From Porphyromonas cangingivalis (GTDB lineage: Bacteria > Bacteroidota > Bacteroidia > Bacteroidales > Porphyromonadaceae), in the NCBI RefSeq assembly GCF_900638305.1, contig NZ_LR134506.1:2370001-2404857 (forward strand): a DNA stretch of 34,857 nucleotides. Reading direction: 5' to 3'. Made by a program: the position numbers and the translations under genes. Within the stretch, counting starts at the first letter, position 1. Every line of letters starts with the position of its first letter. Positions 93-28,677 of this stretch are shown piece after piece. A model generated the notes under the pieces. That model was not told the DNA's origin, searched no databases, and saw only the letters and a list, made by a program, of their open reading frames with translations.

Positions 93-245
93 GTTGTTTA
101 GTTCCCTGCCGATCCGATCGCCCCTTGATCACCCTCTTTCTACTCATTCGACTTTAATCGATGATAATCGACGGGATAGGACTGCAATCGACGATAATCG
201 ACTCGGGGGCTTGAGTCTCATCATATCTTTGCGGTTGTAAAATAA
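93..245. other. Intergenic stretch with TAATCGAC repeats
   Basis: There is no convincing gene here; the short reading frame across it has no recognisable product and runs through the terminator. It carries a repeat motif: AATCGATGATAATCGAC at 156-172 and AATCGACGATAATCGAC at 186-202. A longer 27-nt form (146-172) matches 23 of 27 positions of the minus strand at 19470-19496. Confidence 0.5.
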
Positions 246-247
246 AG

Positions 248-281
248 ATCCCCGAAAGCAGTTCAGTTTGCTTTCAGGGAT
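248..281 (-). terminator. Intrinsic terminator downstream of ddh
   Basis: Arms at 248-260 and 269-281 pair with one mismatch around a short loop. On the minus strand the hairpin is followed by a T-rich stretch. It lies about 30 nt beyond the ddh stop codon. Confidence 0.65.
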
Positions 282-309
282 TTAATGTCAACATGTAAAA
301 CTTTTATCA

Positions 310-1212
310 TCAGACAAGTTTGCCGATCCACTCTTCTCTTTCTCCTGGTAGAAGATCTATTGGGGGAACTTCGGGGAGGGTATAAGCACCTGGCATCTGA
401 CGCATTGTTGCACGTGCACAAGCTACAAGAATTTGAGCTGTGAGGGCCGGATTATTGATCTTCATATCAAAGTGCAGGAGCTGGTTGTGGGTCTTTCCAC
501 TAACTCCTTTTCTACTCATATTGACGCCATGCCCCACATCTTTCAGATCATTGATGGAGTTGACTTGGATGACGTGTGTCTCGTCATGAGAGAAATAGTC
601 ATCGGCCTTGAGGCGTGCGGATACATCCTCAAGTGTATAGCCTTCTTTGAGCTGTACATAGACCATACGGCGATGGATGGATGTCCCTACAGGTATGGTC
701 ATAGATAGAGCGTCTGCCACGCCTTCGATGGCTCTGGCAGCAACGCTGTGCCCCATACTCATACCAGGTCCGAAGTCGGTGTAAGTGATCCCTTGAGGTA
801 CCATAGCCTGCATAAGTGTCCTTATGACCGAGTCACTACCGGGATCCCAACCTGCGGCAAGTATCGCTTTTGTCCCATTGGCTTTGGCAACTGCATCCAA
901 ATTGCGACGTAGAGATACGATTTCACCGTGAATGTCAAAACTGTCGACTGTGTTTATACCTTTGGCAAGGATGCTTGAAGCAACTTCGGGTACAGCTCGT
1001 GTGGGCTGAGATATGATGGCTACATCAACTTTACCCAATTCGGATATGTCTGTGACTTGTGTGTACTTTTGATATTGTGGGGGAAGTTCTGTAACCGATC
1101 GTCTTACGATCCCAACGAGCTCACAGTCTTGTGAGGCTTCGATGGCTTCGATGGCATAACGCCCGATATTACCAAGCCCAACAACGGCTATCCGTATCTT
1201 TTGAATTGTCAT
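310..1212 (-). CDS. ddh: meso-Diaminopimelate D-dehydrogenase
   Basis: This 300-aa protein is an NADP-dependent dehydrogenase that makes meso-diaminopimelate from tetrahydrodipicolinate in one step (EC 1.4.1.16), supplying lysine and peptidoglycan. The N-terminus has a dinucleotide-binding loop, VVGLGNIGRYA, near residues 10-20. VRRS follows strand 2, AGWDPGSDSVIR lies mid-protein, and the substrate domain contains GPGMSMGHS. The pattern and length fit the Ddh family well. The frame is open for 54 more codons upstream, but I choose the ATG at 1212 because family homology starts there and a candidate promoter (TACCTTTG on the minus strand, 1262-1255) falls inside the longer frame. The gene is transcribed alone, divergent from tgt. 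Bacteroidetes often use Ddh instead of the succinylase route. Confidence 0.93.
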   Translation of the reverse strand: MTIQKIRIAVVGLGNIGRYAIEAIEASQDCELVGIVRRSVTELPPQYQKYTQVTDISELGKVDVAIISQPTRAVPEVASSILAKGINTVDSFDIHGEIVSLRRNLDAVAKANGTKAILAAGWDPGSDSVIRTLMQAMVPQGITYTDFGPGMSMGHSVAARAIEGVADALSMTIPVGTSIHRRMVYVQLKEGYTLEDVSARLKADDYFSHDETHVIQVNSINDLKDVGHGVNMSRKGVSGKTHNQLLHFDMKINNPALTAQILVACARATMRQMPGAYTLPEVPPIDLLPGEREEWIGKLV

Positions 1213-1254
1213 ATTAATTGTTTTTGTTTGGGAGATATTATTTAAATGGTGGTA

Positions 1255-1262
1255 CAAAGGTA
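1255..1262 (-). promoter_or_regulatory. Candidate ddh promoter -7 element
   Basis: TACCTTTG on the minus strand fits the Bacteroidetes -7 consensus TAnnTTTG and is 43 nt upstream of the ddh ATG. No clear -33 TTTG is seen. It lies directly beside one arm of the 26-nt inverted repeat. Confidence 0.5.
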
Positions 1263-1263
1263 C

Positions 1264-1515
1264 ATATTTAACGCCAGTTCGATATAAGGAAATACTCCAC
1301 AAAACGAGTAAACACGTGTAAATCAAGCTGTTTTTACGCTCTATTTCAATAGGATAATCGCAAAGAAGAGCCAACAGATAAGTCTTTGGGGCTCAGACAC
1401 AAATGAAAAGACATCTGAACGCAATATAAGCACATAAAAATCCTTCATGAAAAACTAAACATTTTTATAATCAACACATTATATCTCCTCCTTATATCGA
1501 ACTGACGTTATTTAT
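1264..1515. repeat. 26-nt inverted repeat arms in the ddh-tgt intergenic region
   Basis: The arm at 1264-1289 and the reverse complement of 1490-1515 agree at 23 of 26 positions; the shared core is CCTTATATCGAACTG then CGTTA. The 200 bp between them are AT-rich and hold no gene. The layout resembles a small non-autonomous element or a duplicated regulator site. I see no clear target-site duplication. The rest of the 1213-1650 intergenic stretch holds only the two divergent promoters. Confidence 0.6.
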
Positions 1516-1613
1516 CTTTTCTCTTGAGGATATCGATGATTTCCAATAAAATCGAAAGATTTTTTAGAGATGTGTTGATACAGAAATGCTCTCCTTGTCA
1601 TGATTTCTTGTAC

Positions 1614-1644
1614 TTGTGATATCTCTCAAATGTGTGTAAATTTG
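1614..1644 (+). promoter_or_regulatory. Candidate tgt promoter, implying a leaderless or very short leader
   Basis: TTG at 1614-1616 (-33) is followed after 20 nt by TAAATTTG at 1637-1644 (-7), a good match to the Bacteroidetes promoter. The -7 element ends 6 nt before the tgt ATG at 1651, so transcription would start at or next to the start codon. Confidence 0.6.
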
Positions 1645-1650
1645 TAGACT

Positions 1651-2781
1651 ATGAAATTTGATATAGAAGCAACAGATAGCCGCTCGTCGGCACGTGCCGG
1701 GGTCTTGCATACAGATCACGGAGATATACATACCCCTATATTCATGCCTGTGGGTACGGTAGGATCGGTCAAGGCTGTACATATGCATGAGGTTAAGGAT
1801 GATATCGGTGCAGAGATTATTCTCGGCAATACGTATCATCTATATCTCAGGCCGGGTGTGGATGTCCTCAAGAGTGCAGGTGGTCTCCATCGTTTTAATA
1901 GTTGGAATCGTCCTATCCTTACAGATAGTGGCGGTTTTCAAGTTTTTTCGCTCACGCATAGGCGTAAGATGAGTGAAGAAGGGGTTGTTTTCAGGTCACA
2001 TATTGATGGCTCGAAGCATCTCTTTTCGCCAGAGAGGGTCATGGATATCGAGCGTGCGATAGGGGCTGATATCATGATGGCTTTCGACGAGTGTACTCCG
2101 GGAGATGCAGATTATAGGTATGCCAAGGAGTCGCTTGCTCTTACCGAGCGTTGGTTGGATCGTTGTTTCAAGAGATTTAACGAGACCGAACCTTTATATG
2201 GGCACAGTCAGTCTCTCTTTCCTATCGTTCAGGGCTGTGTCTATCCAGACCTCAGGCGTCAAGCAGCAGAAAAGGTGGCAGAGTACGGTGCGGACGGTAA
2301 TGCCATAGGGGGACTCTCTGTAGGTGAGCCCACTGAGGCCATGTACGATATGATAGAGGTCGTGAACGAAGTCCTCCCGAAAGATAAGCCTCGTTATCTC
2401 ATGGGTGTGGGTACCCCGGCCAATATCTTGGAGGGGATCGAGCGTGGTGTGGATATGTTTGACTGCATCATGCCTACACGTAACGGTCGTAATGGCCAAC
2501 TCTTTACTTGGCAGGGTACGATGAATATGCGCAATGCAAAGTGGGCTAACGACCACTCTCCCCTTGATCCCCAAGGGACTTCTTTTGTCGATCATACTTA
2601 CAGCCGTGCTTACGTGAGACATCTCATGGTGTCGCAGGAGATATTGGCACTTCAGATTGCATCGATACACAACCTTGCATTCTATCTTGATCTTGTACGC
2701 ACTGCACGTCAACACATTATACAGGGTGACTTCACTCAGTGGAAAGCCTCCGTCCTTCCTGCTTTGTCCCAACGCCTTTAG
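1651..2781 (+). CDS. tgt: Queuine/preQ1 tRNA-guanine transglycosylase
   Basis: This 376-aa enzyme exchanges guanine-34 of GUN-anticodon tRNAs for preQ1 during queuosine synthesis. Visible landmarks are TDSGGFQVFSL with the proton-acceptor Asp92, the substrate pocket GGLSVGEP, and FDCIMPTRNGR with nucleophile Asp271. Length and order fit the family. Where the usual zinc site CxCxxC would lie, residues 309, 311 and 314 are Gly, Ser and Asp; only His340 (IASIHN) of the four ligands remains. I recall the same loss in other Bacteroidetes Tgt proteins but cannot check it. It heads a likely operon with the permease gene 6 nt downstream. Confidence 0.95.
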   Translation: MKFDIEATDSRSSARAGVLHTDHGDIHTPIFMPVGTVGSVKAVHMHEVKDDIGAEIILGNTYHLYLRPGVDVLKSAGGLHRFNSWNRPILTDSGGFQVFSLTHRRKMSEEGVVFRSHIDGSKHLFSPERVMDIERAIGADIMMAFDECTPGDADYRYAKESLALTERWLDRCFKRFNETEPLYGHSQSLFPIVQGCVYPDLRRQAAEKVAEYGADGNAIGGLSVGEPTEAMYDMIEVVNEVLPKDKPRYLMGVGTPANILEGIERGVDMFDCIMPTRNGRNGQLFTWQGTMNMRNAKWANDHSPLDPQGTSFVDHTYSRAYVRHLMVSQEILALQIASIHNLAFYLDLVRTARQHIIQGDFTQWKASVLPALSQRL

Positions 2782-2787
2782 TCCGAG

Positions 2788-3906
2788 ATGAATATGAAAT
2801 TGAAGCTGACTAAGATGTACGAATACTTGGGGATCATCCGTATCGACAGATATATCATCAGTCGATTTTTGGGAACGTTCATGTTCATCCTCATGCTGAT
2901 TATGGCGATCATTGTCGTCATCGATGTACAGGAGAACCTATCCGATCTTCTGAAGCCCGAAGTGCCTTTGAGTGAGATTATTTTTAGCTATTACTTGGCA
3001 TTGGTACCGTACTTTGCCAATCTTCTTGCACCTCTCTTCATCTTCATCACGGTCATCTTCTTTACTTCCAAACTTGCCGCTCGTTCGGAAATTATCGCCA
3101 TACAAGCAGCAGGGATGAGTTTCACTCGTTTGTTGAAGCCTTATATGATTTCGGCAGCGATCATCAGTTTGGTTTCTTTTTCGTTCAGCAGTGTCATTCT
3201 GCCGAAACTCAACAAAACCCGAATAGGATTTCAGTACAAGTACATCAAGGACAAGAAGGTGGTCGTCGATGATAACCTTCAAGTGGAAGTGGCGCCGAAT
3301 GTATTTGCTTTCTTCGGGTCGTTTGATTCGCGCTCGAATGAGGGACAAAACTTCTCCATGGAGCGGTTTGAAGGGCGTAGCCTTGTCTCTCGTCTCACTG
3401 CCGACAGGATCATCTACAATGGCGACAATAGTTGGACCATCAAGGACTATCGCATTCGAAACTTTGAGGGTTTGTACGAGCACACTGAAGATGGTGCTGA
3501 GTTGGACACAATTATGGTACTCAGACCTGCGGACTTGCTTATCTCTGAAGGGGATAATGAGCTCCTCACGACTTACCAATTACACCAATACATTGAGAGT
3601 CAAAAGAAGAGAGGTCTTGGCAATATCAAGAATTTTCAAGTCGAGTATCATAGACGGTTTGCATCGATGTTGGCAGCCTTCATCCTTACCCTCATCGGGG
3701 TATCTCTGTCTGCACGCAAGGTGAAGGGAGGGATGGGATTCAATATCGCTCTCGGTCTGGCTCTCGCCTTCTCGTACATCTTGCTGTTTACGATATCGAG
3801 TACCTATGCCATTAGTGGGGCTATGTCACCTTTTGTCGCGGCATGGATGCCGAATGCCCTTTATGTCCCCATAGCTTTATTCTTCTATTATAGAGCTAAG
3901 AAGTAA
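2788..3906 (+). CDS. LptF/LptG (YjgP/YjgQ) family lipopolysaccharide export permease
   Basis: A 372-aa inner-membrane protein with the LptF/LptG layout: a hydrophobic N-terminal part (helices around residues 30-50, 65-110 and 120-145), a hydrophilic periplasmic beta-rich domain at about 150-280, and two or three C-terminal helices from about residue 290 on. Such permeases work with the LptB ATPase to pull lipopolysaccharide out of the inner membrane. LptF and LptG cannot be told apart here, so no symbol is given. It sits 6 nt after tgt and 16 nt before priA, so co-transcription is likely. ATGs at 2788, 2794 and 2815 are all possible starts; the first is used. Confidence 0.85.
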   Translation: MNMKLKLTKMYEYLGIIRIDRYIISRFLGTFMFILMLIMAIIVVIDVQENLSDLLKPEVPLSEIIFSYYLALVPYFANLLAPLFIFITVIFFTSKLAARSEIIAIQAAGMSFTRLLKPYMISAAIISLVSFSFSSVILPKLNKTRIGFQYKYIKDKKVVVDDNLQVEVAPNVFAFFGSFDSRSNEGQNFSMERFEGRSLVSRLTADRIIYNGDNSWTIKDYRIRNFEGLYEHTEDGAELDTIMVLRPADLLISEGDNELLTTYQLHQYIESQKKRGLGNIKNFQVEYHRRFASMLAAFILTLIGVSLSARKVKGGMGFNIALGLALAFSYILLFTISSTYAISGAMSPFVAAWMPNALYVPIALFFYYRAKK

Positions 3907-3922
3907 GCTTTTTTCCAACCTC

Positions 3923-6340
3923 ATGTCCCCGGTCTATGTAGAAGTCCTCTTGCCCTTACCGACGCAAAAGTGTAGGTACACTTATGCTGTACCTGTGGGT
4001 ATGCAGTCCACAGAACTTCTTTATAAGCTCGTTTGTGTCAGCTTCGGGCATGGTAAAGTTTATTCCGGGGTTGTCGTAGGAGTCTTGTCTGTCCCTCCCG
4101 ATCCTTCGATAAACTACAAGTCTATCATAGAGATTTATCCCTATCCGCCTCTGCCGACCTTTTCAATCTCCCTCCTCGAATGGGTCGCAGAGTACTATAT
4201 GTGCAGTCAGGGTGAAGTCCTCAAGGCAATGATCCCTGCGGCTTATCGTCCTGATGGAGAAGCTCATTATGGGGTTGATGAAGAGCGACTTGAAGCCAGT
4301 GGGGACGACAACTTGCTCAGAACCTTGAGTGCACTTCCCAAACGTTTTACCCTAAAGCAGTTCAAACAAACTTATCCCGAGACGACATTCAAGCTGTTAC
4401 TCGAACTCCTTCACCAAGGGATCATCATCCTAAGCGACGAGCAGGGTATGGCTCCGAGACCTAAGGTTGTCAAAGGTTGGGGGGTATCTTCATCTTTTCT
4501 GTCAGACTCCTCCAAGTTGGATCATGCACGTGAGATGCTCAAACGCAGCCGTGGTGCGATCCGAGTCTTTGAGCAGATTGTGTCGGTGCACGATGCTCGT
4601 CTCAAATCCCGAGATCGTGATGCTGATTCACCTTTGCTTCCTGTCGCATTGATCTCCCTTGCCGAGAGATATGGGGTCGGTATAGCGGTGATCAAAAAAC
4701 TCAGAGATCTGGGGGTCTTTGAGGAACAGGAAGTCCTTCTTGATATACAACAACACAGGCAGATACAAGAGCCTCTCGTGGAGGACGCCCTATCCTCATC
4801 GCTCAAAGTGCAATACCCCGATGCTCCGATTGTGTTGGCTCATATTGAAGCCTCAAGTCTGAGTCAAAGAGTTCCTTATGCTCTCATCTCCGAAGCCATG
4901 AGGGCTGGTGGCCAAGTCTTGTTGCTCTGCCCAACTCAGGAGGCTTTGCACGAACTTGAACCTCTCCTCATCTCTTACTATTCCGAGCACTCGCTCTTTC
5001 CTTTTCACTCAAACATCCCACCATACAAACGTAACAACACATGGTACGAAGCACTTCAAGGTGCTTCGGGCCTTTATGTGGGCTTACGCAAGGCGGTATG
5101 GCTGCCGTTTCGGGCTCTGAAGACCGTCATTATCCTTGATGAAGAGCACGTTGGTTATCGCCAGTTTGAACCTGCACCGAGATTCAACGCCCTCAATGTC
5201 TCCCTTGTGCTTGCCAAGTATTGCAGAGCACAAGCAATCATGACCACGGCTTCGCCTTCGGTGGAGCGACAGCTTCTTGCTCACGAGGGGCGTTATGCCT
5301 ATCTGAACCTACCCTCCCGAGAGCCTGATAACAACTCTGCTACGCTCCAACTCATATCGCTCAAAGACTCTTTCAAGAAAAATAAAGTTCGTGGTCGTCT
5401 CCTCTCCTTCGAGGTCTTGGATGCACTACGTGAAAACATACAAGCGGGAGGAAAGGCACTTCTTCTCCTACATCGCAAAGGCTATGCCCGATATGTCACT
5501 TGCGAAGACTGTGGTATGACGCTCGAATGCCCCCAATGCAATGTGACCTATCGCTACTTTGAAAACAACAAAAATATCGTCTGTCCTCTTTGCGGACATC
5601 ACGATGCCGTCCCACACTCTTGTCCCGATTGTGGACAGACCTCTCTTACGTTTGGAGGAACAGGCATCGAGAGGCTCGCTCAGGAAGTGCGCTATATCTA
5701 TCCGGAAGTTTCCACGACCGTCATTGGAGAAGAGAGCGAAGCCGAGGGTATGGCGTCGGATATCCTACTCTCCTCGGATTATGAGATCCCCCGGAAGATA
5801 TTACGCGCCCTTTCGCTCATTGTCATTGTCCAGTTTGATCTGCTCACCATGAAGCATGACTTCAGGGCAAACGAAAGGGCTTATCGACTTCTCTGTCATT
5901 GTCAGAACGAGGCACCCAAGCTCCGAAAATTCATCATTCAGTATCTTTCAGAGCACCAAAATGCACTTCTTGCTTTTCAGGCAAAGGACTATAACCTTCT
6001 CTTCGAGCATGAGCTCCAACAACGTGCCTTGGTCAAGTATCCCCCTTTCTCTCGAATGATAGATGCCTATGTCGAGTCTTCGGACAAGCGACAGGCTTAC
6101 GACTTGGCCACTCTCTTCGTTGATCGAGCTCAGCAACTCACCGAACTCAGTGTCTTCGGTCCTGCCCCCCTGCCTGTCCGGAAGAAATGGGTCGAAGCAG
6201 GATACAAGCTTACCTTCATGATCCCTATCGACGAAGATCTTCGAGCGATGCGGAGATATTTGGAAGACCTTGCCGGAGAGATTCTTGCTGATAAGGCGGC
6301 GAGAGCTACACGTATCTATTTCGACGTTGATCCGCTATAA
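3923..6340 (+). CDS. priA: PriA-family primosomal protein N' with degenerate helicase motifs
   Basis: An 805-aa PriA relative, the protein that reloads the replication machinery at stalled forks. The N-terminal DNA-binding part (LPLPTQKCRYTYAVP) and the four zinc CxxC pairs are intact (Cys527/530, 536/539, 554/557, 567/570). DEEH is kept at 406-409, as are GGTGIERL and DFRANER. The ATPase motifs are damaged. Where GVTGSGKT should be, residues 308-315 read IEASSLSQ; GTRSA has become GLRKA; the TQMIAKG region reads SSDYEIP; and GRAGR has become NEAPK near 662-666. The frame is open throughout, so this is not a simple frameshift. It probably keeps structural or DNA-binding roles with little or no helicase activity; a second PriA elsewhere cannot be excluded. 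Confidence 0.85.
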   Translation: MSPVYVEVLLPLPTQKCRYTYAVPVGMQSTELLYKLVCVSFGHGKVYSGVVVGVLSVPPDPSINYKSIIEIYPYPPLPTFSISLLEWVAEYYMCSQGEVLKAMIPAAYRPDGEAHYGVDEERLEASGDDNLLRTLSALPKRFTLKQFKQTYPETTFKLLLELLHQGIIILSDEQGMAPRPKVVKGWGVSSSFLSDSSKLDHAREMLKRSRGAIRVFEQIVSVHDARLKSRDRDADSPLLPVALISLAERYGVGIAVIKKLRDLGVFEEQEVLLDIQQHRQIQEPLVEDALSSSLKVQYPDAPIVLAHIEASSLSQRVPYALISEAMRAGGQVLLLCPTQEALHELEPLLISYYSEHSLFPFHSNIPPYKRNNTWYEALQGASGLYVGLRKAVWLPFRALKTVIILDEEHVGYRQFEPAPRFNALNVSLVLAKYCRAQAIMTTASPSVERQLLAHEGRYAYLNLPSREPDNNSATLQLISLKDSFKKNKVRGRLLSFEVLDALRENIQAGGKALLLLHRKGYARYVTCEDCGMTLECPQCNVTYRYFENNKNIVCPLCGHHDAVPHSCPDCGQTSLTFGGTGIERLAQEVRYIYPEVSTTVIGEESEAEGMASDILLSSDYEIPRKILRALSLIVIVQFDLLTMKHDFRANERAYRLLCHCQNEAPKLRKFIIQYLSEHQNALLAFQAKDYNLLFEHELQQRALVKYPPFSRMIDAYVESSDKRQAYDLATLFVDRAQQLTELSVFGPAPLPVRKKWVEAGYKLTFMIPIDEDLRAMRRYLEDLAGEILADKAARATRIYFDVDPL

Positions 6341-19323: not shown

Positions 19324-19621
19324 GTGTTTCTGAAAAAGGGATATATAATGCCTCATCAATACTCAGACAGTATCCTATCATCTATACTCGATTATCCCAA
19401 GCTCCTCATCAAAATATCTATGAACGCTTTCGTTTGGTTGCAAAGATAATATGAGCTGCGCTCGTTCAAGTCGATTACAGTCGATTATAGTCGAATGTCG
19501 TTGATTATGATTGTGCATTCTCTCACGACCCTATCAACATCAATGGAAATTCTGAACATAATGGTATGCCTAAAGCATACCTACAAGCTTGAGGGGATAA
19601 AAGTAGGATTGAGGAGAACGT
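19324..19621. other. Intergenic boundary of the accessory island
   Basis: No gene is supported. It contains a minus-strand copy of the TAATCGAC repeat (19470-19496) and the perfect 7-bp hairpin GGTATGC/GCATACC (19563-19581) with no T-run. The GNAT gene ends at 19622. No attachment-site-like direct repeat or tRNA was recognised at this edge. Confidence 0.45.
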
Positions 19622-20176
19622 TTATCTGCCTTTCAGCCTTTTCCAATTTTCTAATGTGAGTTTCGTGAAATGTTCTGTGCGAAATTCATTCAATAATGGA
19701 ACTGCTTTGTCGTGTTCTGTGTGGCTGTAAGTAAATCCGCATTTCTCTTGTACACGCCTTGATTTTTCATTTCCATCAAAATAACCACACCAAACGGTAG
19801 TCTGCTTTAGGTCATCAAAAGCATATCGAAGTAGCTCATTTACAGCTTCGGGTATCAAACCCTGTCCCCAAAATGGCTCTCCGATCCAAAAGCCTATTTC
19901 GCACTCGGTATCTGCCATTTTTGCGGAGTAAGTTTCACTTCTTGCCGTCATTATTCCAACACTACCGATTGCTTCTCCTGTCGCTTTCAATACAACAGCA
20001 TAAGTTTCAGGAGTCGAAAGAACGCTCTTAATAATCTCACGACTATTCTCAATGCTCGTATGTGGCGGCCAACCGGCTATTGGACCAATATTAGGGTTTT
20101 GCGCATACTTGTAAAGTGCTTCGGCATCTTTCTCTAGCCATGGTCTCAAAATTAAACGTTCTGTTTGTAATTCCAT
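19622..20176 (-). CDS. GNAT family N-acetyltransferase (RimJ/RimL type)
   Basis: A 184-aa acetyltransferase. The start MELQTERLILRPW is the classic opening of the RimJ/RimL subgroup. GFWIGEPFWGQGLIPEAV holds the acetyl-CoA-binding loop, and NEKSRRVQEKCGF is the motif-B helix. The usual substrates are protein N-termini or small amines; none can be assigned. It is the last gene in the minus-strand island, 136 nt after the AlbA_2 gene, so it may or may not share that transcript. It is more AT-rich than flanking core genes. Confidence 0.9.
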   Translation of the reverse strand: MELQTERLILRPWLEKDAEALYKYAQNPNIGPIAGWPPHTSIENSREIIKSVLSTPETYAVVLKATGEAIGSVGIMTARSETYSAKMADTECEIGFWIGEPFWGQGLIPEAVNELLRYAFDDLKQTTVWCGYFDGNEKSRRVQEKCGFTYSHTEHDKAVPLLNEFRTEHFTKLTLENWKRLKGR

Positions 20177-20312
20177 ATTTTATTCAGATTAAATTTCTAC
20201 TCTACCATCTGGTTCGCTGTGTCTTTCCTACCTCTAACAATATAGAACTACACTAATAGCTACTCTAAAATACAATACACTGTTTTGCACTGCGCCACTC
20301 TATTCTCTTATT

Positions 20313-21752
20313 CTATTTGAGTATTATCCACTTTCCAGCCTTTGTAGAGCCTTCGTGCTTGATTACTCCTTCTTTAACCATCCTCCTAAGATAATAACGA
20401 ATACTGTCCTCCGTTCTGTTTAACCTTTTGGCTAAATCTTTCCTTGTAACTTGCGGAAAGTTTTTTATTTCATCTAATATTTCATCCTCTATATTTCTTG
20501 GGCTTTTCTTGGGTCTTTCTTGGGCTTTTCTTGGGCCTTTCTTGGACTTTTCTTCGGTAGTTTCTCCTCCAAAACCCTCTTCAAAATACTTTTGAGAAAC
20601 GTTCTCAACTACTCGAAAAGCTGTAATCAATGAAAAATCAAAAGAGGCTTGCCCATTACCGTTTTCTTCCAACTCCTTCTGAACTCGGTAGACTCCACGG
20701 CTGAATCGGTTTACATAGCCCAAAACTTTCATTGCTTCGGCAATAAAGGGATTCCGATAATCACTCACATTGGGGAAATTGTCGGGACTGACCTTGCCAT
20801 ATAATCCGCCAGGGTTTTGAATCTCGATACGGTCGTCATACTCATAAAACTGAATAGGTGCATTCCCTTCGTAATCCCTATGCATAATGGCATTCATCAA
20901 CAACTCTCGAGTAGCCCAGTATGGGTACTTAGAAACTGTTTCTTCCCGAAGTACACTCACGGGAATAGGACGCTTTTGAGAGATGCTTGTCTCGACAAAA
21001 GCATCAATCTTAGGCAATACCCTACAAAGATTTCCACTAAACTTATGCTCGTTGAGAATATCGCTCGCACGATCCTTACCCTTGAAGCGAACATATTGAA
21101 TATACGCCCCATGTACGTGTCGCTCAGGATTCTTTCCAAATAGGACAATAGCCCCATTAGTCGGACAGTTATAGCGCAAACCATATAAGCCAAGGGAGGA
21201 AAGTTGATCCGTGATATCTCGTTTGTCTTCACCGAGAACATCCTCTGCCACAGCCTTGGGCAAAAACTCCTTACGAATGAGAGATACATCTAAGTCGTCA
21301 ATGCTCGTTCCCAAACAAGGCATTGCGTTAAAGGTACGAACATTGGAGAGCCGTCTTTCAGTAAGTATCTTTTCTTCTGCCTCTGTTGCAGTGCTCTTCC
21401 GAGGACCGACACGTACCCAAACGCGCCCCCGATAACGTACAGGAGGAAATTCTGAAGGCTGGACTTCTGCCACCAATACATCCCCTTCATCAAAATGGAA
21501 CTTTTCTACTGTCATGATGGGCTGAGGGAGAATGTTGCCATCCGTCCGAATATTGGCAATCTGCAATAAGAGTTTATCATCAACCTGCAAACCTGACAAC
21601 TCTCCATTATCCTTTGCTCCAATAATGAGATAGCCATTCTTACCACTACCCGAAATATCATTTGAGAAAGCACATATAGCCTGACAAAACTTATCCATGT
21701 TGCCAGTTGATTCTGTTCTCTCAGTATTGTTGCTCTCCGTGTCTGAAAGCAT
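20313..21752 (-). CDS. AlbA_2 (Schlafen-like) ATP-binding protein with C-terminal helix-turn-helix
   Basis: A 479-aa protein. Residues ~10-140 form an AlbA_2 DNA-binding domain (TESTGNMDKFCQAICAFSND, GYLIIGAKDNGELSGL, YRGRVWVRVG). Residues ~240-370 are a GHKL-type ATP-binding domain (RELLMNAIMHRDYEG, RIEIQNPGG, NRFSRGVYRV). A basic linker (KSKKGPRKAQERPKKSPR) and a winged helix at ~425-479 (RKDLAKRLNRTEDSIRYYLRRM) follow. It is likely a transcription or defence regulator. The linker is encoded by five 11-nt tandem units whose copy number would change the frame. Family-like sequence continues eight codons upstream of this ATG to an ATA at 21776, so the normal start may have mutated. Confidence 0.85.
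   Translation of the reverse strand: MLSDTESNNTERTESTGNMDKFCQAICAFSNDISGSGKNGYLIIGAKDNGELSGLQVDDKLLLQIANIRTDGNILPQPIMTVEKFHFDEGDVLVAEVQPSEFPPVRYRGRVWVRVGPRKSTATEAEEKILTERRLSNVRTFNAMPCLGTSIDDLDVSLIRKEFLPKAVAEDVLGEDKRDITDQLSSLGLYGLRYNCPTNGAIVLFGKNPERHVHGAYIQYVRFKGKDRASDILNEHKFSGNLCRVLPKIDAFVETSISQKRPIPVSVLREETVSKYPYWATRELLMNAIMHRDYEGNAPIQFYEYDDRIEIQNPGGLYGKVSPDNFPNVSDYRNPFIAEAMKVLGYVNRFSRGVYRVQKELEENGNGQASFDFSLITAFRVVENVSQKYFEEGFGGETTEEKSKKGPRKAQERPKKSPRNIEDEILDEIKNFPQVTRKDLAKRLNRTEDSIRYYLRRMVKEGVIKHEGSTKAGKWIILK
20496..20550 (-). repeat. 11-nt tandem repeat, five units, inside the AlbA_2 gene
   Basis: Five consecutive 11-nt units on the plus strand: TCTTGGGCTTT, TCTTGGGTCTT, TCTTGGGCTTT, TCTTGGGCCTT and TCTTGGACTTT, with a sixth degraded unit after them. 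Eleven is not a multiple of three, so gain or loss of one unit shifts the frame between the ATPase domain and the C-terminal winged helix. Confidence 0.85.
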
Positions 21753-21822
21753 TTGTAGAAGTTCCTTTTTCGTTATCGTGACTTTTCCTTTGTTTTAATG
21801 TGCATCAGATAATCTTTACCTA

Positions 21823-23454
21823 TCATTGGCTTGAAAAAGATAACTCCCAACATCTACTCAATGCCTCGTAACATGTTTTCATTTCAGTTTCAAACTGTTC
21901 TTTTGTAATCTGATCTCCAACCCTCTTTGCTAGTTGTTTTTTCTTTTTGCCATTCATTGCATCGACTTCTGCCTGAGATTTACGCCAATTACCATCATTG
22001 GCATCGGGACAATCTGGGTAGCATTGCTCAATGTCTCTCTTGTTCAGAATAAAGATTTGATTATTCGTTACTAAAGATTTATATCTCCTTTGGAAATCCT
22101 GTACTCCACCTTCAGTTTGTCCACTTGGCAAATCCATCAAGATGACCAATCGCCCCCCGTAAATATTATTATTTAATGGAGTATAGGCTTTCTCAATCGC
22201 ATTTATTGTTCTTTCTGTCTGATCTATATCTCCATGTGCTTGAATAATTTGGATTGAAGGTTTGTCCCAGTAATGGCGTTTTATGACTCTTGTAAAGAAC
22301 TCAAATTCACTTTGCCCCTCCACGATGATAAAGTTATTTGGGAGTAATAGGTCGGCAGGACTTCCTCCTAATAAATCATAAATAACGTATGGTTTTTCTG
22401 AATCATCAACTATGCTAATCTCTGTTTTTCCACTTGTCTTTTCAACCTTAAACAGAGTTTGGTTAGGATGGTTTTCAGCAACAAATACCGAAGAATGAGT
22501 ATTTATAAACACTTGATCTGTCTCTTTTGAAAGCTCATATAGTACTTCTTTGAGCTTTCTTTGCGCCATGGGGTGAAGGTGTAATTCAGCTTCATCAATA
22601 AAGAAAATAAAAGATTTGCCAATGTCATCATTTTGCTTCCTAAAATCAGCATAAGCTTGTATGATGGACAACATTAAGGCTCTTTGCATTCCATCCCCTT
22701 TTTCTTCCGCTGAGGTCTCAATTCCATCGTCTATGTCGGTATTGAAGTTTTTGAGTAAGTCGTCAAAAGCTGGTGGGGTTACTTCAAAACGAACATTGGT
22801 AGTATCTGGGAATTGTTTTTCCAGATAAATTTTTACCTGATTTCCTATTCTATCGAATTCAGTCTTAATTTCAGATTCATCATCTTCAAATAGGGCTGAA
22901 AATTTCTCTTGAAATTCTTTATACTGTTGATTCGTTTGGAGGATTGTTGTTAATACATTCGATAGCATTACGCCCATTGGTGTATTCTTCGAGTATTTTG
23001 CAACAGAATCATAATACTGCTTTGTTGTTATGTATTCAAATTTTGGAAGAAAATCATTTAAAGCTGCATCAAAGCCCGTTCCTGGAGGTATTTCACTTCC
23101 CCTGATAAACATTTGTCGTTTCTTAGAATCTGAACTACATCTCCGAAAGCTAACAATATCTGCCTCTCCAAGCTTTGAGGATAGTGTAGTTTTATTCTTT
23201 TCATTCTGCATATTGTGCAAACCATCCTGCGCCCCACAGAATTCAACTTCGACAAACATTTCCAGTCCGTTGTCTCTTAAGTATTTCAGTTCTTGCAAGT
23301 TTCCCTTATAACCATTAAAGAAAAATTCCAATGCTTCAAAAAGATTTGTTTTCCCACAGTTATTCTGGCCAACAAAGATATTAAAGTCTGTCACCTCTAT
23401 TTCAGCCTTTTCAATAGATCTGAAGTTTTGAATTGTTATTTTGCTTATTTTCAT
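21823..23454 (-). CDS. OLD-family ATP-dependent endonuclease (ATPase plus TOPRIM)
   Basis: A 543-aa overcoming-lysogenization-defect type protein. The ABC-like ATPase has Walker A GQNNCGKT at 29-36, a signature-like EKGDGMQRALML, Walker B FFIDEAELHLHP and INTHS. A C-terminal TOPRIM-like domain follows, with IIVEGQSEFEFF and KRDIEQ. Its DxD position reads MDLPSG, so one acid is missing and catalysis is uncertain. Such proteins cut phage or plasmid DNA; Gabija GajA belongs to the same superfamily, but no UvrD-like partner is next to this gene. It follows the HNH nuclease gene by 40 nt on the same strand and precedes the AlbA_2 gene by about 70 nt. Confidence 0.85.
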   Translation of the reverse strand: MKISKITIQNFRSIEKAEIEVTDFNIFVGQNNCGKTNLFEALEFFFNGYKGNLQELKYLRDNGLEMFVEVEFCGAQDGLHNMQNEKNKTTLSSKLGEADIVSFRRCSSDSKKRQMFIRGSEIPPGTGFDAALNDFLPKFEYITTKQYYDSVAKYSKNTPMGVMLSNVLTTILQTNQQYKEFQEKFSALFEDDESEIKTEFDRIGNQVKIYLEKQFPDTTNVRFEVTPPAFDDLLKNFNTDIDDGIETSAEEKGDGMQRALMLSIIQAYADFRKQNDDIGKSFIFFIDEAELHLHPMAQRKLKEVLYELSKETDQVFINTHSSVFVAENHPNQTLFKVEKTSGKTEISIVDDSEKPYVIYDLLGGSPADLLLPNNFIIVEGQSEFEFFTRVIKRHYWDKPSIQIIQAHGDIDQTERTINAIEKAYTPLNNNIYGGRLVILMDLPSGQTEGGVQDFQRRYKSLVTNNQIFILNKRDIEQCYPDCPDANDGNWRKSQAEVDAMNGKKKKQLAKRVGDQITKEQFETEMKTCYEALSRCWELSFSSQ

Positions 23455-23494
23455 AATTAGATCATTGTTTATGAGTAGAATATTTTAATGGTCA

Positions 23495-24382
23495 CTAATC
23501 TGTTGAGGGAGTACAAATACCTAATTGCTCCAAGATATCTCTGCCGAACTTGCTAAGGGGCTGTTTGCTGAGATCTTCGACTTCTAAGTGATAGCCGAAG
23601 AGCATACGTTTTATTTCAGGCATGCTTAAAGATTTGTCCTTGAAGAATGTCTCTATTACACTATCATAGTACCCACCAAGATATCCCTGAGCTTTGAAGA
23701 TTAGGTCTTCTGCGAGGCTTGTTTGTTGAGCGTATAAAGGATTGATATAAAGGAGGTCTAGGTCGTTTTTGACTAAGGGGTTTTGGGTAGAACTGGGTGT
23801 TGTCGTTATATCAGGAATCTCTTGTCTAGTAATTACTGTTATTAGGTTATTAACTTTGAATAGAGGGAGATTCTCGAACCCTGATATGTATGGATTATGC
23901 GTTAATTTCCTTGTGCCCTTGATGCGATTACATGAGCTACAACTCGGGATTAAATTGTAGAAAGATAAAGCTAAGGCTGGGTAACTATCTTGGGAATAGA
24001 AGTGATCGAGTTGAGCCTCACGAGCTGTTGGGGTTCTAGAATCTCTTGTAAGTATGTAATTATGGTTACAGTAAGGACAGACTTGTATCCCTATTTTGTT
24101 TATTAGCCAATAAGCTAGCCTTTGCCCTTTATAATTAGGAATATTATACTTCTTCTTAATAAGTCTATATTGATAATTAAATATCTCCTTTATATCCTCT
24201 CTGCTCTTTTGATTTTCAAGATCATTATTTTTAGACACTAACTTATCTGCAGGACAAGTTAACATCTCCCTTATTTCTTTATGAGAGATTGTATTTTTTT
24301 TATTGGCTGGCCAATTTGACAAGAGTATATTTGCATATTCCTCGGCTATGTTGTCAAGATTCGGGGTATTTATTTTGATCAT
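23495..24382 (-). CDS. HNH endonuclease, PtuB-like
   Basis: A 295-aa nuclease. An N-terminal helical part (to ~95) precedes an HNH domain with two zinc CxxC pairs (Cys102/105 in CPYC; Cys148/151 in CSSC) and the catalytic set DH (Asp126, His127), Asn143 in FYNLIPSC and Asn152 in CNRIKG. The spacing CPYC...LDHF...YP...NLIPSC..CN matches PtuB of Septu and the HNH effectors of some retrons. Its start codon overlaps the stop of the ATPase gene (ATGA), as expected for a coupled pair. No reverse transcriptase or retron RNA was seen. The C-terminal ~130 residues are not recognised. Confidence 0.85.
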   Translation of the reverse strand: MIKINTPNLDNIAEEYANILLSNWPANKKNTISHKEIREMLTCPADKLVSKNNDLENQKSREDIKEIFNYQYRLIKKKYNIPNYKGQRLAYWLINKIGIQVCPYCNHNYILTRDSRTPTAREAQLDHFYSQDSYPALALSFYNLIPSCSSCNRIKGTRKLTHNPYISGFENLPLFKVNNLITVITRQEIPDITTTPSSTQNPLVKNDLDLLYINPLYAQQTSLAEDLIFKAQGYLGGYYDSVIETFFKDKSLSMPEIKRMLFGYHLEVEDLSKQPLSKFGRDILEQLGICTPSTD

Positions 24383-26643
24383 TGTCTATTTGCTTTCTTT
24401 TTAAGCTCTTCTAGCTTTTTCTTCTTTCTAAGTCCTTCCAGCTTTTTCTTCTTTCTAAGCTCTTCTAGCTTTTTCTTCTTTCTAAGTCCTTCCAGCTCTT
24501 TCTTCTTTTTAAGTTCTTCTAGCTCTTTCTTCTTTTTAAGTTCTTCTAGCTCTTTCTTCTTTTTAAGTTCTTCTAGCTCTTTCTTCTTTTTAAGTTCTTC
24601 TAGCTCTTTCTTCTTTTTAAGTTCTTCTAGCTCTTTCTTCTTTTTAAGTTCTTCTAGTTCTTTCTCTTTTTGCTTTATTTGAAGATCAATACTATAAGAT
24701 TCATTTAATAGATTCGTTAATTCTCTACGAATGATTGGTTCTCCTACGAGATTAATTTCTCTTTGTAGTTCATCATAGTCTTTCTTTTTCTCATTTATGT
24801 CAGTTAGAAGCCGTTCTATTTTCTTTTGTGCGAACTCTCCGATAGGCATATTTTCAATAAAGAATGAATCTTTTAGCATCGAATGAATATTGGCTCCGAA
24901 TGTCTCTTGTTTGAGCCCACTACTTGGGACACCCTCTTCTAGATATAGAACTTTACTTTGAGGAATGTCAGAAAGTATAAAAGGAGAATGAGTAGCCAAG
25001 AGGATATTGATACTATGTACTTCTTGGTAGCCCATCGTTCTGATGGCTTTAATCAACCTAAAGAGAAATTCTCGTTGGTATTCGGGGTGAAAATAAAGCT
25101 CAATTTCGTCAAGTATTATATTAATATTTTTGTACTTGACTAGAGTTGCATGAGTATCTGCAACAGAGTTTATATTACGTATATGGTAAAGAATGCAAGA
25201 TATTGTATACAGTAATTGTTTTTCTCCTGAACTCAATTGTGAAACAGAGTGTTCTCTGTCCTTTTCTCCCTCCTCTCGGCTCTTCTTTACGAGTATCTCT
25301 AAAGAAAAAATGGGAGGTGGTATTCTGTATATCTTGTCTTTATTTTTGTATTCATCTGAGACGGTGATGGATGAAAAATCATCAATTGTAACACTCTTAT
25401 TGCTTCTTCCGCCTATATCTTTATAAATCCTGCTGTTATGTCCACCCAAAAGATAATTTATCGTTTGGTGCAACTTGTTTGTAATATGACTGGTATCCTT
25501 TCTAATTTCTTCGATGAAATTTTTCCACTCATCATCTGTTGTTACATCTTTCCCTATCACTTTATTGATAAAACATTTCTCATATTTGTAAGCTATAGAT
25601 ATTGTTTTATAAATAAGATATGCAAAAGCATGCTCTAACTGATTACTTTCAAAGCTTATATTAGTATTTTGTCTGATTTTCCGTTGGCAATCTGCACCTA
25701 ATGCATTCTCCCAAGCCTTTCTTACTGATTCAATTTCTGTAAGTTGTTTCTTAGTCTTGCTCTTGTAAATGCTTTTCTCCTTCAGGTGGTCGAAGACTCT
25801 ATCTTCCAGAGCGTTTTTAGGACTTTTCCTTGATCCTAAAGCATTTTCTTTTTGACCTATCTTGATTTCGGTTACCTTATATTTACCATTTAGTTCTAAG
25901 AATGGGTTTTCTTTTGAATCTTTGTCTATGAAAAAGAGGGAGATAAGACGGTCTTTGGAAAGGGTATTTTCGACATTAATATCAAAACAACCCTCTGTTC
26001 GCATTGGATTCAATACAATAGGGGTTTGATAGCCATCATTCTTGTGAAAAAGGCCATTTAGCCAATGTTTTTTACTTTGGGGAGCCCCTTTTTCTTTCGC
26101 ATAGTCATTGGTGTTAAATGCATAAATGGAGTAATTCAAAAGAATTGTATAGAATAAGTATTCTTTTCCGTTACCATTATACTTTTCTATTATGTTCCCG
26201 TCCAATAGTACCTTGTTATCCTTATTTTGTTTGATTGAATATATAAAATTGTTGTAGGAAAAATATAGTTCTCCTCTTACCCCTTTGATCCAAATGATGT
26301 CTCCCCCTTTTTTGTCCTTATCATTAAAGTCACCAAGTAGAGCACATGCAAAATTATTAAGTAATCTGAGTATAAAGTCTATAAGAGCGCTTTTTCCACT
26401 ACCATTTTTTCCAACTATAGCATGGATACTTATAGTGGGACTCTTTGTATTCTCTTCCAATGAGTAAAAATTATCAGGAACAATTTTTGTGTCGCATTGA
26501 GGCTTATCATCTATGATTGTATATTCTTTATCGAAGATGTACCATATATCCGAAGACAGATTTTTACGGATGTATTCTGCACACTCGCTACCGATTTTGA
26601 CCGCAATAAGTTTTAGCCCCTTTGCTATTTCAGGAGATGCCAT
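24379..26643 (-). CDS. ABC-type (AAA) ATPase, PtuA-like, with a lysine/glutamate repeat tail
   Basis: A 754-aa SMC/ABC-fold ATPase. Walker A GKNGSGKS is at 78-85, signature QLSSGEKQLLY at ~500, Walker B NIILDEIELYFHPEYQ, and ATHSPFIL the switch. A long insert of unknown fold lies between (~100-480). From ~620 a coiled coil begins and becomes ten 9-residue units of the type KELEELKKK before ANRQ. Together with the overlapping HNH gene this resembles the PtuA-PtuB (Septu) defence pair, where the ATPase senses infection and controls the nuclease. The protein is longer than PtuA as I know it. A candidate promoter lies 39 nt upstream. Confidence 0.85.
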   Translation of the reverse strand: MASPEIAKGLKLIAVKIGSECAEYIRKNLSSDIWYIFDKEYTIIDDKPQCDTKIVPDNFYSLEENTKSPTISIHAIVGKNGSGKSALIDFILRLLNNFACALLGDFNDKDKKGGDIIWIKGVRGELYFSYNNFIYSIKQNKDNKVLLDGNIIEKYNGNGKEYLFYTILLNYSIYAFNTNDYAKEKGAPQSKKHWLNGLFHKNDGYQTPIVLNPMRTEGCFDINVENTLSKDRLISLFFIDKDSKENPFLELNGKYKVTEIKIGQKENALGSRKSPKNALEDRVFDHLKEKSIYKSKTKKQLTEIESVRKAWENALGADCQRKIRQNTNISFESNQLEHAFAYLIYKTISIAYKYEKCFINKVIGKDVTTDDEWKNFIEEIRKDTSHITNKLHQTINYLLGGHNSRIYKDIGGRSNKSVTIDDFSSITVSDEYKNKDKIYRIPPPIFSLEILVKKSREEGEKDREHSVSQLSSGEKQLLYTISCILYHIRNINSVADTHATLVKYKNINIILDEIELYFHPEYQREFLFRLIKAIRTMGYQEVHSINILLATHSPFILSDIPQSKVLYLEEGVPSSGLKQETFGANIHSMLKDSFFIENMPIGEFAQKKIERLLTDINEKKKDYDELQREINLVGEPIIRRELTNLLNESYSIDLQIKQKEKELEELKKKKELEELKKKKELEELKKKKELEELKKKKELEELKKKKELEELKKKKELEGLRKKKKLEELRKKKKLEGLRKKKKLEELKKKANRQ
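24394..24663 (-). repeat. 27-nt tandem repeat, ten units, at the ATPase 3' end
   Basis: Exactly 270 nt in ten units encoding KELEELKKK and variants (KELEGLRKK, KKLEELRKK). Six units at the 5' side of the gene encode identical residues and are nearly identical in bases, while the four nearest the stop codon have diverged. The unit keeps frame, so copy number would alter tail length only. The charge pattern predicts a rigid single alpha-helix. Confidence 0.95.
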
Positions 26644-26681
26644 TTTTTTATCCTTTTATTTATATGTTCTGTTATATGGCT

Positions 26682-26689
26682 CAAATCTA
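26682..26689 (-). promoter_or_regulatory. Candidate promoter of the ATPase-HNH-OLD operon
   Basis: TAGATTTG on the minus strand (26689-26682) fits TAnnTTTG and is 39 nt upstream of the ATPase ATG. It follows directly after the dnaK terminator, so the island is probably transcribed independently. No -33 TTG is obvious. Confidence 0.5.
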
Positions 26690-26715
26690 CATAAAAATAA
26701 CGTGTTAAAAAAAAT

Positions 26716-26749
26716 AACGCCCTGGGACGCATTTAGCTCCCAAGGCGTT
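26716..26749 (-). terminator. Intrinsic terminator of dnaK
   Basis: AACGCC with TGGGA pairs with TCCCA and GGCGTT, with a one-base mismatch on each side, around a 9-nt loop. On the minus strand it is followed by TTA and a long T-run. It is 27 nt past the dnaK stop codon. Confidence 0.85.
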
Positions 26750-26775
26750 GTGATATATGATTCTGATTTGAAAAC

Positions 26776-28677
26776 TCACTTCACTTCTTCGAAGTCGGCG
26801 TCTTGGACGTCGTCCTTGGATGAGGAGGACTGAGCACCTGCGTCGGGGCCTGGTTGGGCACCGCTCATGTCGGGGCCTTGCTGGCTGTACATCTCTTGTG
26901 ACATGGCTTGAAGGAGGGTGTTGAGCTCGTTCATCGCTGTGTCGATGGCTGAGATGTCTTGAGCCTTGTGGGCATCTTTGAGTTTGCCGAGAGCCGCTTC
27001 GATAGGAGCCTTCTTGTCGGCAGGGATCTTGTCGCCAAGTTCGCTGAGTTGCTTTTCTGTCTGGAAGATGACAGAGTCAGCTTGGTTGATCTTGTCGATG
27101 CGTTCCTTTTCCTTCTTGTCCGCTTCTGCGTTTGCTGCCGCTTCGTCCTTCATGCGCTTGATTTCTTCTTCGCTGAGACCGCTGGATGCTTCGATGCGGA
27201 TCTTTTGTTCCTTACCTGTGCCCTTGTCTCTTGCCGAAACGTTCACGATACCGTTTGCGTCGATGTCGAATGTCACTTCGATCTGAGGGACTCCACGTGC
27301 TGCAGCAGGGATGCCGTCGAGGTTGAAACGACCGAGAGACTTATTGTCTTTAGCGATAGGCCGCTCACCTTGGAGGACGTGAATCTCTACCGAAGGTTGG
27401 TTGTCCACAGCAGTCGTGAAGACTTCAGACTTCTTTGTCGGGATGGTTGTGTTCGCTTCGATGAGGCGAGTCATCACGCCACCCATGGTCTCGATACCGA
27501 GTGAAAGGGGTGTGACGTCGAGAAGGAGGACATCCTTGACATCTCCGCTGAGGACACCACCTTGGATCGCAGCACCGAGAGCCACGACTTCGTCAGGGTT
27601 GACACCCTTCGATGGTTGCTTGCCGAAGATCTTTGCCACGAGCTCCTGGATCGCTGGGATACGTGTCGAACCACCCACGAGGATGACTTCGTCGATCTCC
27701 GATGCCGATAGGCCTGCATCCTTGAGGGCTTGCTGACAAGGAGGTACACACGCTTGGATGTACTTGTCTGCGAGTTGCTCGAACTTAGCACGAGTAAGGG
27801 TCTTGACCAAGTGTTTGGGCATACCGTTGACAGGCATGATGTAAGGGAGGTTGATCTCTGTGCTCGTACTGCTTGATAGCTCGATCTTTGCCTTTTCGGC
27901 AGCTTCCTTGAGACGCTGGAGCGCCATAGGATCTTGGCGAAGGTCGAGGCCTTCGTCGCTCAAGAACTCTTCCGCCAACCAATCGATGATCACGTGGTCG
28001 AAGTCGTCACCACCGAGGTGAGTGTCACCGTTGGTAGACTTCACTTCGAAGACACCGTCGCCAAGCTCAAGGATGGAGATATCAAATGTACCACCACCAA
28101 GGTCGAAGACAGCGATCTTCATGTCCTTGTTGGCCTTGTCGAGACCGTAAGCAAGAGCGGCAGCCGTAGGTTCGTTGACGATACGCTGAACCTTGAGACC
28201 TGCGATCTCACCCGCTTCCTTTGTCGCCTGTCTCTGTGCGTCAGAGAAGTACGCAGGCACGGTGATGACAGCGTCTGTGACTTCTGCGCCGAGGTAGTCT
28301 TCTGCGGTCTTCTTCATCTTCTGAAGCACCATTGCAGAGATCTCCTGTGGAGAGTATAGACGACCATCGATGTCTACACGAGGGGTGTCGTTGTCGCCCT
28401 GTACCACCTTGTAAGGTAGGCGGTCAGCTTCGTTTTTGAGCTTAGAGTAACGCTCGCCCATAAATCTCTTGATAGAGTATATTGTCTTGACCGGGTTGGT
28501 GATCGCCTGACGCTTTGCAGGGTCACCTACCTTGCGTTCGCCACCATCGACAAATGCGATGACAGATGGGGTGGTGCGCTTGCCTTCGCTGTTCGCGATG
28601 ACGATTGGTTCGTTACCTTCGAGTACAGCGACACAAGAGTTTGTTGTTCCTAAGTCGATTCCGATTATTTTTCCCAT
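26776..28677 (-). CDS. dnaK: Molecular chaperone DnaK (Hsp70)
   Basis: A 633-aa Hsp70 with every landmark: [15 protein letters not shown] at the N-terminus, [42 protein letters not shown], the interdomain linker [15 protein letters not shown], and a lid ending in the acidic tail [11 protein letters not shown]. It binds unfolded proteins with DnaJ and GrpE, neither of which is in the window. A 12-nt palindrome (CACCCGCGGGTG at 28761-28772) lies about 85 nt upstream of its ATG; no HrcA-type CIRCE element was recognised. It appears to be monocistronic. Confidence 0.99.

Follow-up and report, generated by a model that had tools for sequence, protein, structure and literature searches.

Porphyromonas cangingivalis carries, close together on one strand, an ATPase-HNH gene pair, an OLD-family gene, a gene for an AlbA_2-domain protein and a GNAT gene. 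Such a run raises the question of whether it is one compound defence system or a gathering of separate ones. The five genes lie in the window analysed here, the final 34,857 bases of the 2.40-Mb single-contig genome, as minus-strand open reading frames (ORFs; Table 1) that encode an ATPase (Pfam AAA_21), an HNH endonuclease (HNH), an OLD protein (AAA_15/AAA_21), the AlbA_2 protein (SLFN_AlbA_2, HATPase_c_4 and HTH_24) and an acetyltransferase (Acetyltransf_3). A preliminary description of the block had proposed an accessory island between rpmF and dnaK that may form a compound defence operon, with the OLD and AlbA_2 proteins as extra effector and regulator. The five genes, their positions and strand, the 4-nt overlap of the ATPase and HNH genes and the 40-nt gap to the OLD gene were all confirmed; gaps of 70 nt and 136 nt then precede the AlbA_2 and GNAT genes. 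The block is also an acquired island, flanked by yceD and rpmF (L32p) on the plus strand and by dnaK on the minus strand. The operon fared less well. Because the gene set did not recur in other genomes, we rejected it as the main reading, and the block is probably a defence island whose modules arrived separately and became stacked at an integration site linked to dnaK.

Linkage of the genes in other genomes

The preliminary description had itself proposed to judge the operon by whether its genes co-locate in other genomes, and elsewhere they mostly do not. We collected 31 neighbourhoods of the ATPase-HNH pair, namely two loci of a first search, the nine best phylum loci outside the window genome and 20 of the 28 order matches outside it. 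In 30 of these the ATPase gene immediately precedes the HNH gene, and the exception (L113; G and L numbers are our handles for genomes and loci) begins at a contig end. An OLD gene occurs in none of the 31 and an AlbA_2 gene in one. Conversely, there is no HNH gene in the seven OLD neighbourhoods (L118, L188-L193), and neither an OLD nor an HNH gene in the 16 neighbourhoods of close AlbA_2 relatives. Two genomes carry both the pair and an OLD gene, unlinked: some 0.93 Mb separates them in G062, and in G144 they are on two different contigs. The AlbA_2-GNAT couple has other neighbours in a sister species (G009) and in genome G002.

Base composition also divides the block. It had been described as AT-rich, and its GC content is indeed below that of its flanks (yceD 46%, dnaK 54%), yet it is split into two composition classes, with 34-37% GC in the ATPase, HNH and OLD genes and 41-43% in the AlbA_2 and GNAT genes.

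A compound operon would be a single transcript whose pair, OLD protein and Schlafen-like AlbA_2 protein act jointly as sensor, effectors and regulator. The counts above, the unlike GC content of the two halves and the changing company of the AlbA_2-GNAT couple make it very unlikely, although several observations speak for it and weigh against separate modules. TAnnTTTG is a promoter motif of the Bacteroidota type. Four such boxes lie on the minus strand in 19600-26800, and TAGATTTG, upstream of the ATPase gene, is the only intergenic one within the island. Since the genes share a strand, are separated by gaps of 136 nt or less and have this one intergenic promoter-like box, they may be co-transcribed. 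Parts of the set also meet elsewhere: an AlbA_2-HATPase gene lies directly upstream of the pair at L104, an AlbA_2 gene and the OLD gene share a type III-like restriction operon at L190, one of the seven OLD loci, and an AriA/AriB-like ATPase-Toprim pair is found near the ATPase-HNH pair at L111. In addition, contig ends cut several of the pair neighbourhoods short, and no second copy of the proposed attachment site at the dnaK end was found in the window within 3 mismatches.

At an E value of 1e-3 or better, the HNH protein has matches in 22 of 395 sampled phylum genomes, many of them weak; at 1e-10 it is found in 27 of 393 order genomes (the window genome is included in both counts). A comparison of gene order across Porphyromonas had been suggested, and of the 12 genus genomes only the window's own has the pair. 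A two-sequence OLD profile matches 9 of 395 phylum genomes at 1e-30, own included, and 294 other order genomes hold no OLD relative at 1e-40.

The pair keeps varied company. Restriction genes lie near it at L060, L061, L063 and L102 by sequence search, and at L066 and L068 by reading of the sequences. At L002 (Sphingobacterium cavernae, 126-5210) a DRT4-like reverse transcriptase (6.1e-188) is directly upstream of the PDC-M62 pair and a SIR2_2 protein follows; L003 has a DUF4238 protein and L102 an Aga_SIR2 protein. PDC-M62-like pairs at L111, L112 and L115 stand amid genes that we read as polysaccharide synthesis genes. As for the OLD protein, a 66%-identical relative is encoded on a viral-collection contig, adjoining McrB-like and McrC genes. 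The helicase-methyltransferase operons of L157 and L191 read as similar; one genome's operon carries an AlbA_2 gene and the other's an OLD gene, so that the two look interchangeable.

The preliminary description had also noted no named system with this exact content. For the pair there is a named PADLOC candidate, PDC-M62, while the set itself does not recur. The finding is real, though most of it is ordinary: the stacked modules are of known kinds. It corrects a reading that comes easily to mind, as defence genes in a same-strand run need not form one system, and recurrence of the set is the test.

Table 1. Features of the block and of its dnaK end (window coordinates)
Feature	Position	Strand	Evidence
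AAA/ABC-type ATPase, 754 aa, PADLOC PDC-M62A, PtuA-like	24379..26643	-	PDC-M62A 1.4e-54; AAA_21
27-nt tandem array, 10.3 copies, coding for the (KELEELKKK)n tail of the ATPase	24395..24671	-	Tandem Repeats Finder (TRF) score 456
HNH endonuclease, 295 aa, PADLOC PDC-M62B, PtuB-like	23495..24382	-	PDC-M62B 1.6e-48; HNH 21.8 bits, cut-off 21.4
OLD-family ATPase with Toprim-like C-terminus, 543 aa	21823..23454	-	PADLOC Old 1.2e-60 over residues 1-408; AAA_15 1.6e-37
Prokaryotic Schlafen-like protein, 479 aa: SLFN_AlbA_2, HATPase_c_4, repeat linker, winged helix	20313..21752	-	Pfam 1.5e-18, 2e-16, 9.2e-8; triad E6, E11, D48
11-nt tandem array, 5.5 copies, in linker preceding the winged helix	20494..20558	-	TRF; family comparison
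GNAT acetyltransferase, probably a passenger	19622..20176	-	Acetyltransf_3 3.7e-30; 93.0% DNA identity to L058
TAnnTTTG box (TAGATTTG) upstream of the ATPase gene; possible Bacteroidota-type promoter	26682..26689	-	Sequence motif
dnaK 3' end; proposed integration site	26776..26793	-	Counterpart in L058 recurs after 13.65 kb, beyond the integrase element

Three putative nuclease modules

The first two genes had been called a Septu-like ATPase-HNH pair, and this was borne out with a shift of name: the PDC-M62A and PDC-M62B models are the top PADLOC rows for the ATPase and the HNH protein, and PtuA (3.8e-15) and PtuB (2.8e-11) rank below them and are not the best match. NCBIfam gave sub-threshold matches only, to TIGR04435 (restriction system-associated ATPase), PtuA, TIGR02646 and PtuB. 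A profile built on the ATPase family finds solved PtuA chains, those of retron Ec78 at 9.5e-18 and of the Septu-type structure 8ee4 at 1e-13; that of the HNH family reaches a solved TIGR02646 HNH protein at an E value of only 0.003. Over 12 aligned sequences the ATPase motifs are kept (Walker A G78-K84-S85, signature S471-G473-E474, D512-E513 and H552), and in 12 aligned HNH proteins C102, C105, D126, H127, N143 and C151 are invariant and C148 nearly so. Septu EcB88 requires both its Walker A/B motifs and its HNH motif for defence, according to the parts of the report available to us (PMC13096335), and the window pair has both.

Judged by these motifs and matches, the pair is intact, of the PDC-M62 kind and a predicted Septu-like variant. 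It shares with PDC-M62 and Septu the adjoining ATPase and HNH genes, the ABC-type ATPase motifs and the HNH nuclease. It differs from Septu in its weak matches to the PtuA and PtuB models, in the length of its ATPase (754 aa, against 436-550 aa for the listed PtuA models and chains) and in the repeat-built tail of that protein. This lysine- and glutamate-rich tail is built by the ten-copy 27-nt repeat just ahead of the HNH start and is absent from the 11 relatives aligned with the window ATPase. The kinship has been met before in a survey of Bacillus cereus, which, in the portion accessible to us, enters 203 PDC-M62 calls as duplicates of DefenseFinder's Septu. A retron was rejected for the block, which has no reverse transcriptase; the sole Rfam match in the window is a tmRNA.

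The OLD assignment stands. PADLOC places the protein with Old, and the comparison with the solved TsOLD gives 3.4e-10. The N-terminal ATPase is clear in both Pfam and PADLOC, and the Toprim part, for which Pfam has no Toprim match, is seen through conserved acidic residues alone (E379, E383, D441 and E476, kept in all eight aligned OLD proteins). DxD is the canonical Toprim motif. None of the eight has it at the acidic motif; seven have DxP and one DxI. The protein is a predicted Class-1-like ATPase-Toprim protein, and neither a GajB-type UvrD-like helicase (Class 2) nor a reverse transcriptase (Class 3) adjoins its gene. Like P2 Old and the Thermus scotoductus OLD, it would combine ATPase and Toprim in one protein, here of 543 aa, and it departs from them in the acidic Toprim motif, read as DxP or DxI across the aligned proteins. 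Class 1 OLD genes are described as isolated single genes, whereas this one sits among defence genes, with the HNH gene 40 nt upstream. Gabija was rejected, as GajA matched worse (4.5e-24) than Old (1.2e-60) and no GajB lies alongside. PARIS was likewise rejected: AriA matched the OLD protein at 1.7e-37, but here a single gene would encode both ATPase and Toprim, and no AriB adjoins it.

The AlbA_2 protein had been taken for a regulator, which its acidic triad and architecture, matching those of Schlafen-type RNase effectors, render doubtful. The catalytic triad of SLFN13 is given as E205, E210 and D248 in what was available of the source, with spacings of 5 and 38 residues; those of E6, E11 and D48 in the window protein are 5 and 37. 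In an alignment of 31 loci, the window's own included and gaps counted among the 31, the first position is E in 25 (G in 1, gap in 5), the second E in 25 (D in 1, gap in 5) and the third D in 25 (N in 2, V in 1, gap in 3). The accessible sections of a survey of BREX systems (PMC12839542) file proteins with SLFN_AlbA_2, a minimal histidine kinase and a winged helix-turn-helix under RNases, and there the domain order is identical to that of the window protein. The window protein departs from this BREX-linked family in its repeat-array linker and in a gene position beside the OLD gene and the ATPase-HNH pair, not in a BREX operon. A prokaryotic Schlafen is therefore the more probable identity of the AlbA_2 protein, ahead of a plain transcription regulator, and because the acidic triad is conserved over the aligned loci, a role as RNase effector is no less likely for it than one as regulator.

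A transcription regulator of the adjoining defence genes would bind their promoter through its winged helix. The protein has such a domain, and its family is often found beside defence genes: an AbiP2 reverse transcriptase (1.2e-182) adjoins the gene in G002, and restriction or BREX genes occur in 4 of the 10 plasmid AlbA_2 loci looked at. We nonetheless regard this role as unlikely, in view of the triad with its SLFN13-like spacing, the placing of the same architecture among RNases, and a gene position that is downstream here, far from the promoter-like box. The protein could be both an enzyme and a control element.

We suggest that in the first module the ATPase detects infection and keeps the HNH nuclease under its control; by analogy with Septu and retron relatives, the nuclease would cut tRNA or DNA and so stop phage growth. 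The second module would be a stand-alone OLD ATPase-Toprim nuclease. The N-terminal Schlafen domain of the third is probably an RNase, with the HATPase domain and winged helix as putative sensing or control parts. For their relatives, the accessible parts of the sources describe the following: the PtuAB of Septu EcB88 and of retron Eco7 cut tRNA-Tyr, another Septu is reported to act on DNA, retron Eco4 PtuAB showed no tRNA decrease, P2 Old is said to cut host tRNA, and SLFN13 cuts tRNA. By this analogy, all three modules may stop phage through attack on the nucleic acids of the infected cell. Three nuclease modules, every one of them related to a protein that cuts tRNA or nucleic acid, stand at one dnaK-linked site, an unusually dense stack. 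BREX-type operons with backup effectors are comparable, since Schlafen-HK-wHTH and OLD/Toprim proteins are also carried there as auxiliary effectors in the part of the BREX survey available to us (PMC12839542); the block differs from these in having no restriction or BREX core genes among its ORFs, as judged by Pfam domains and the ORF list.

Gene transfer and a proposed integration site at the dnaK end

The stacked modules would have gathered at the 3' end of dnaK, the proposed integration site of a mobilizable element in the sister species. In that species (G009), dnaK is followed on its 3' side by a tyrosine integrase, a VapE-like protein and a relaxase and then by the AlbA_2 gene; the final 19 bases of dnaK are repeated 13.65 kb on with one mismatch, although short two-copy repeats can arise by chance. 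The segment in question (L058, 2043-15713) reads as a mobilizable element with the AlbA_2 gene aboard. DNA identity between the window and G009 is 90.6% for the AlbA_2 gene and 93.0% for the GNAT gene, against 75.7% for dnaK, which is a sign of recent transfer of the two genes. In a further genome (G619, L156), an AlbA_2 gene again lies directly 3' of dnaK. Because the window has no second dnaK-end copy, we infer its insertion history. No empty site was seen in the nearest relative (G001), whose contigs are interrupted where dnaK ends. A plasmid or phage origin was not supported by DNA similarity, blastn giving no match to the block in plasmids or phages. The GNAT protein, without a match among the PADLOC models, is probably a passenger.

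We find it improbable that the block is an inert relic of mobile-element genes that no longer function. It has no integrase and a single attachment-site copy, and the AlbA_2 copy of G002 is frame-broken. The start codon of the window's AlbA_2 gene is doubtful as well: the ATG that starts the G002 copy corresponds to ACG in the window (21753-21790) and the window ORF opens ten codons later with an internal ATG, which leaves its true start uncertain. Against this, each of the five window ORFs reads through its full length without interruption and the motifs of the three nuclease modules are conserved.

Repeat linker and winged helix of the Schlafen family

A side result on the AlbA_2 protein may matter more than the island itself. 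Its linker array recurs across the family, which we followed in 31 loci (L048-L050 and L127-L154: those of the window, G009 and G002 and 28 from one search, four further match rows having no locus of their own). TRF detected an array in the 360-nt linker stretch of 28 of the 31 and in the core of two, for one of which (L144) the core stretch extended into a neighbouring family gene. The main period is 12 in 17 loci, 11 in nine, and 24 and 42 in one each, and the unit sequences vary from relative to relative. Arrays with a period of 11, 12 or their multiples are present at 27 of the 31 loci and in 4 of 620 dinucleotide shuffles, so that an origin by chance was rejected. The array is not universal, as TRF found none in the linkers of L136, L139 and L140.

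At L127 the core and an intact winged-helix reading are in different frames across the array; this is the only clean case of a frame switch, because the G002 copy, broken by two shifts, has its second shift inside the winged helix. Between the window and G009, core DNA is 94.7% identical, while the winged helix (window 20313-20494, L058 14720-14928) is a mosaic, with 50.4% identity over its first 123 nt and 93.2% over its last 59 nt. Our literature searches, with most subscription papers outside their reach, found no published report of the repeat linker or of the winged-helix mosaic.

We tentatively propose, as a possibility rather than an expectation, that the Schlafen-HATPase-wHTH family has a built-in variation device, the 11- or 12-nt array between core and winged helix, which would also be a crossing point for winged-helix exchange. 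A change in copy number of an 11-nt array would shift the reading frame and could cut off the winged helix, and one of a 12-nt array would alter the length of the hinge by four residues per step. Exchange of winged helices at the array would leave sister strains with a shared RNase core and different recognition parts, resembling the variation of repeats and specificity domains in type I restriction enzymes. Were the linker to act as such a variable hinge, or as a switch, strains would have in it a common source of differences in phage defence, and one that can be tested. Beyond the 31 loci, the linker array is present in three of six more distant chromosomal relatives and in five of the ten plasmid relatives looked at, out of 72 records; one further AlbA_2 copy (L130) is broken in its core.

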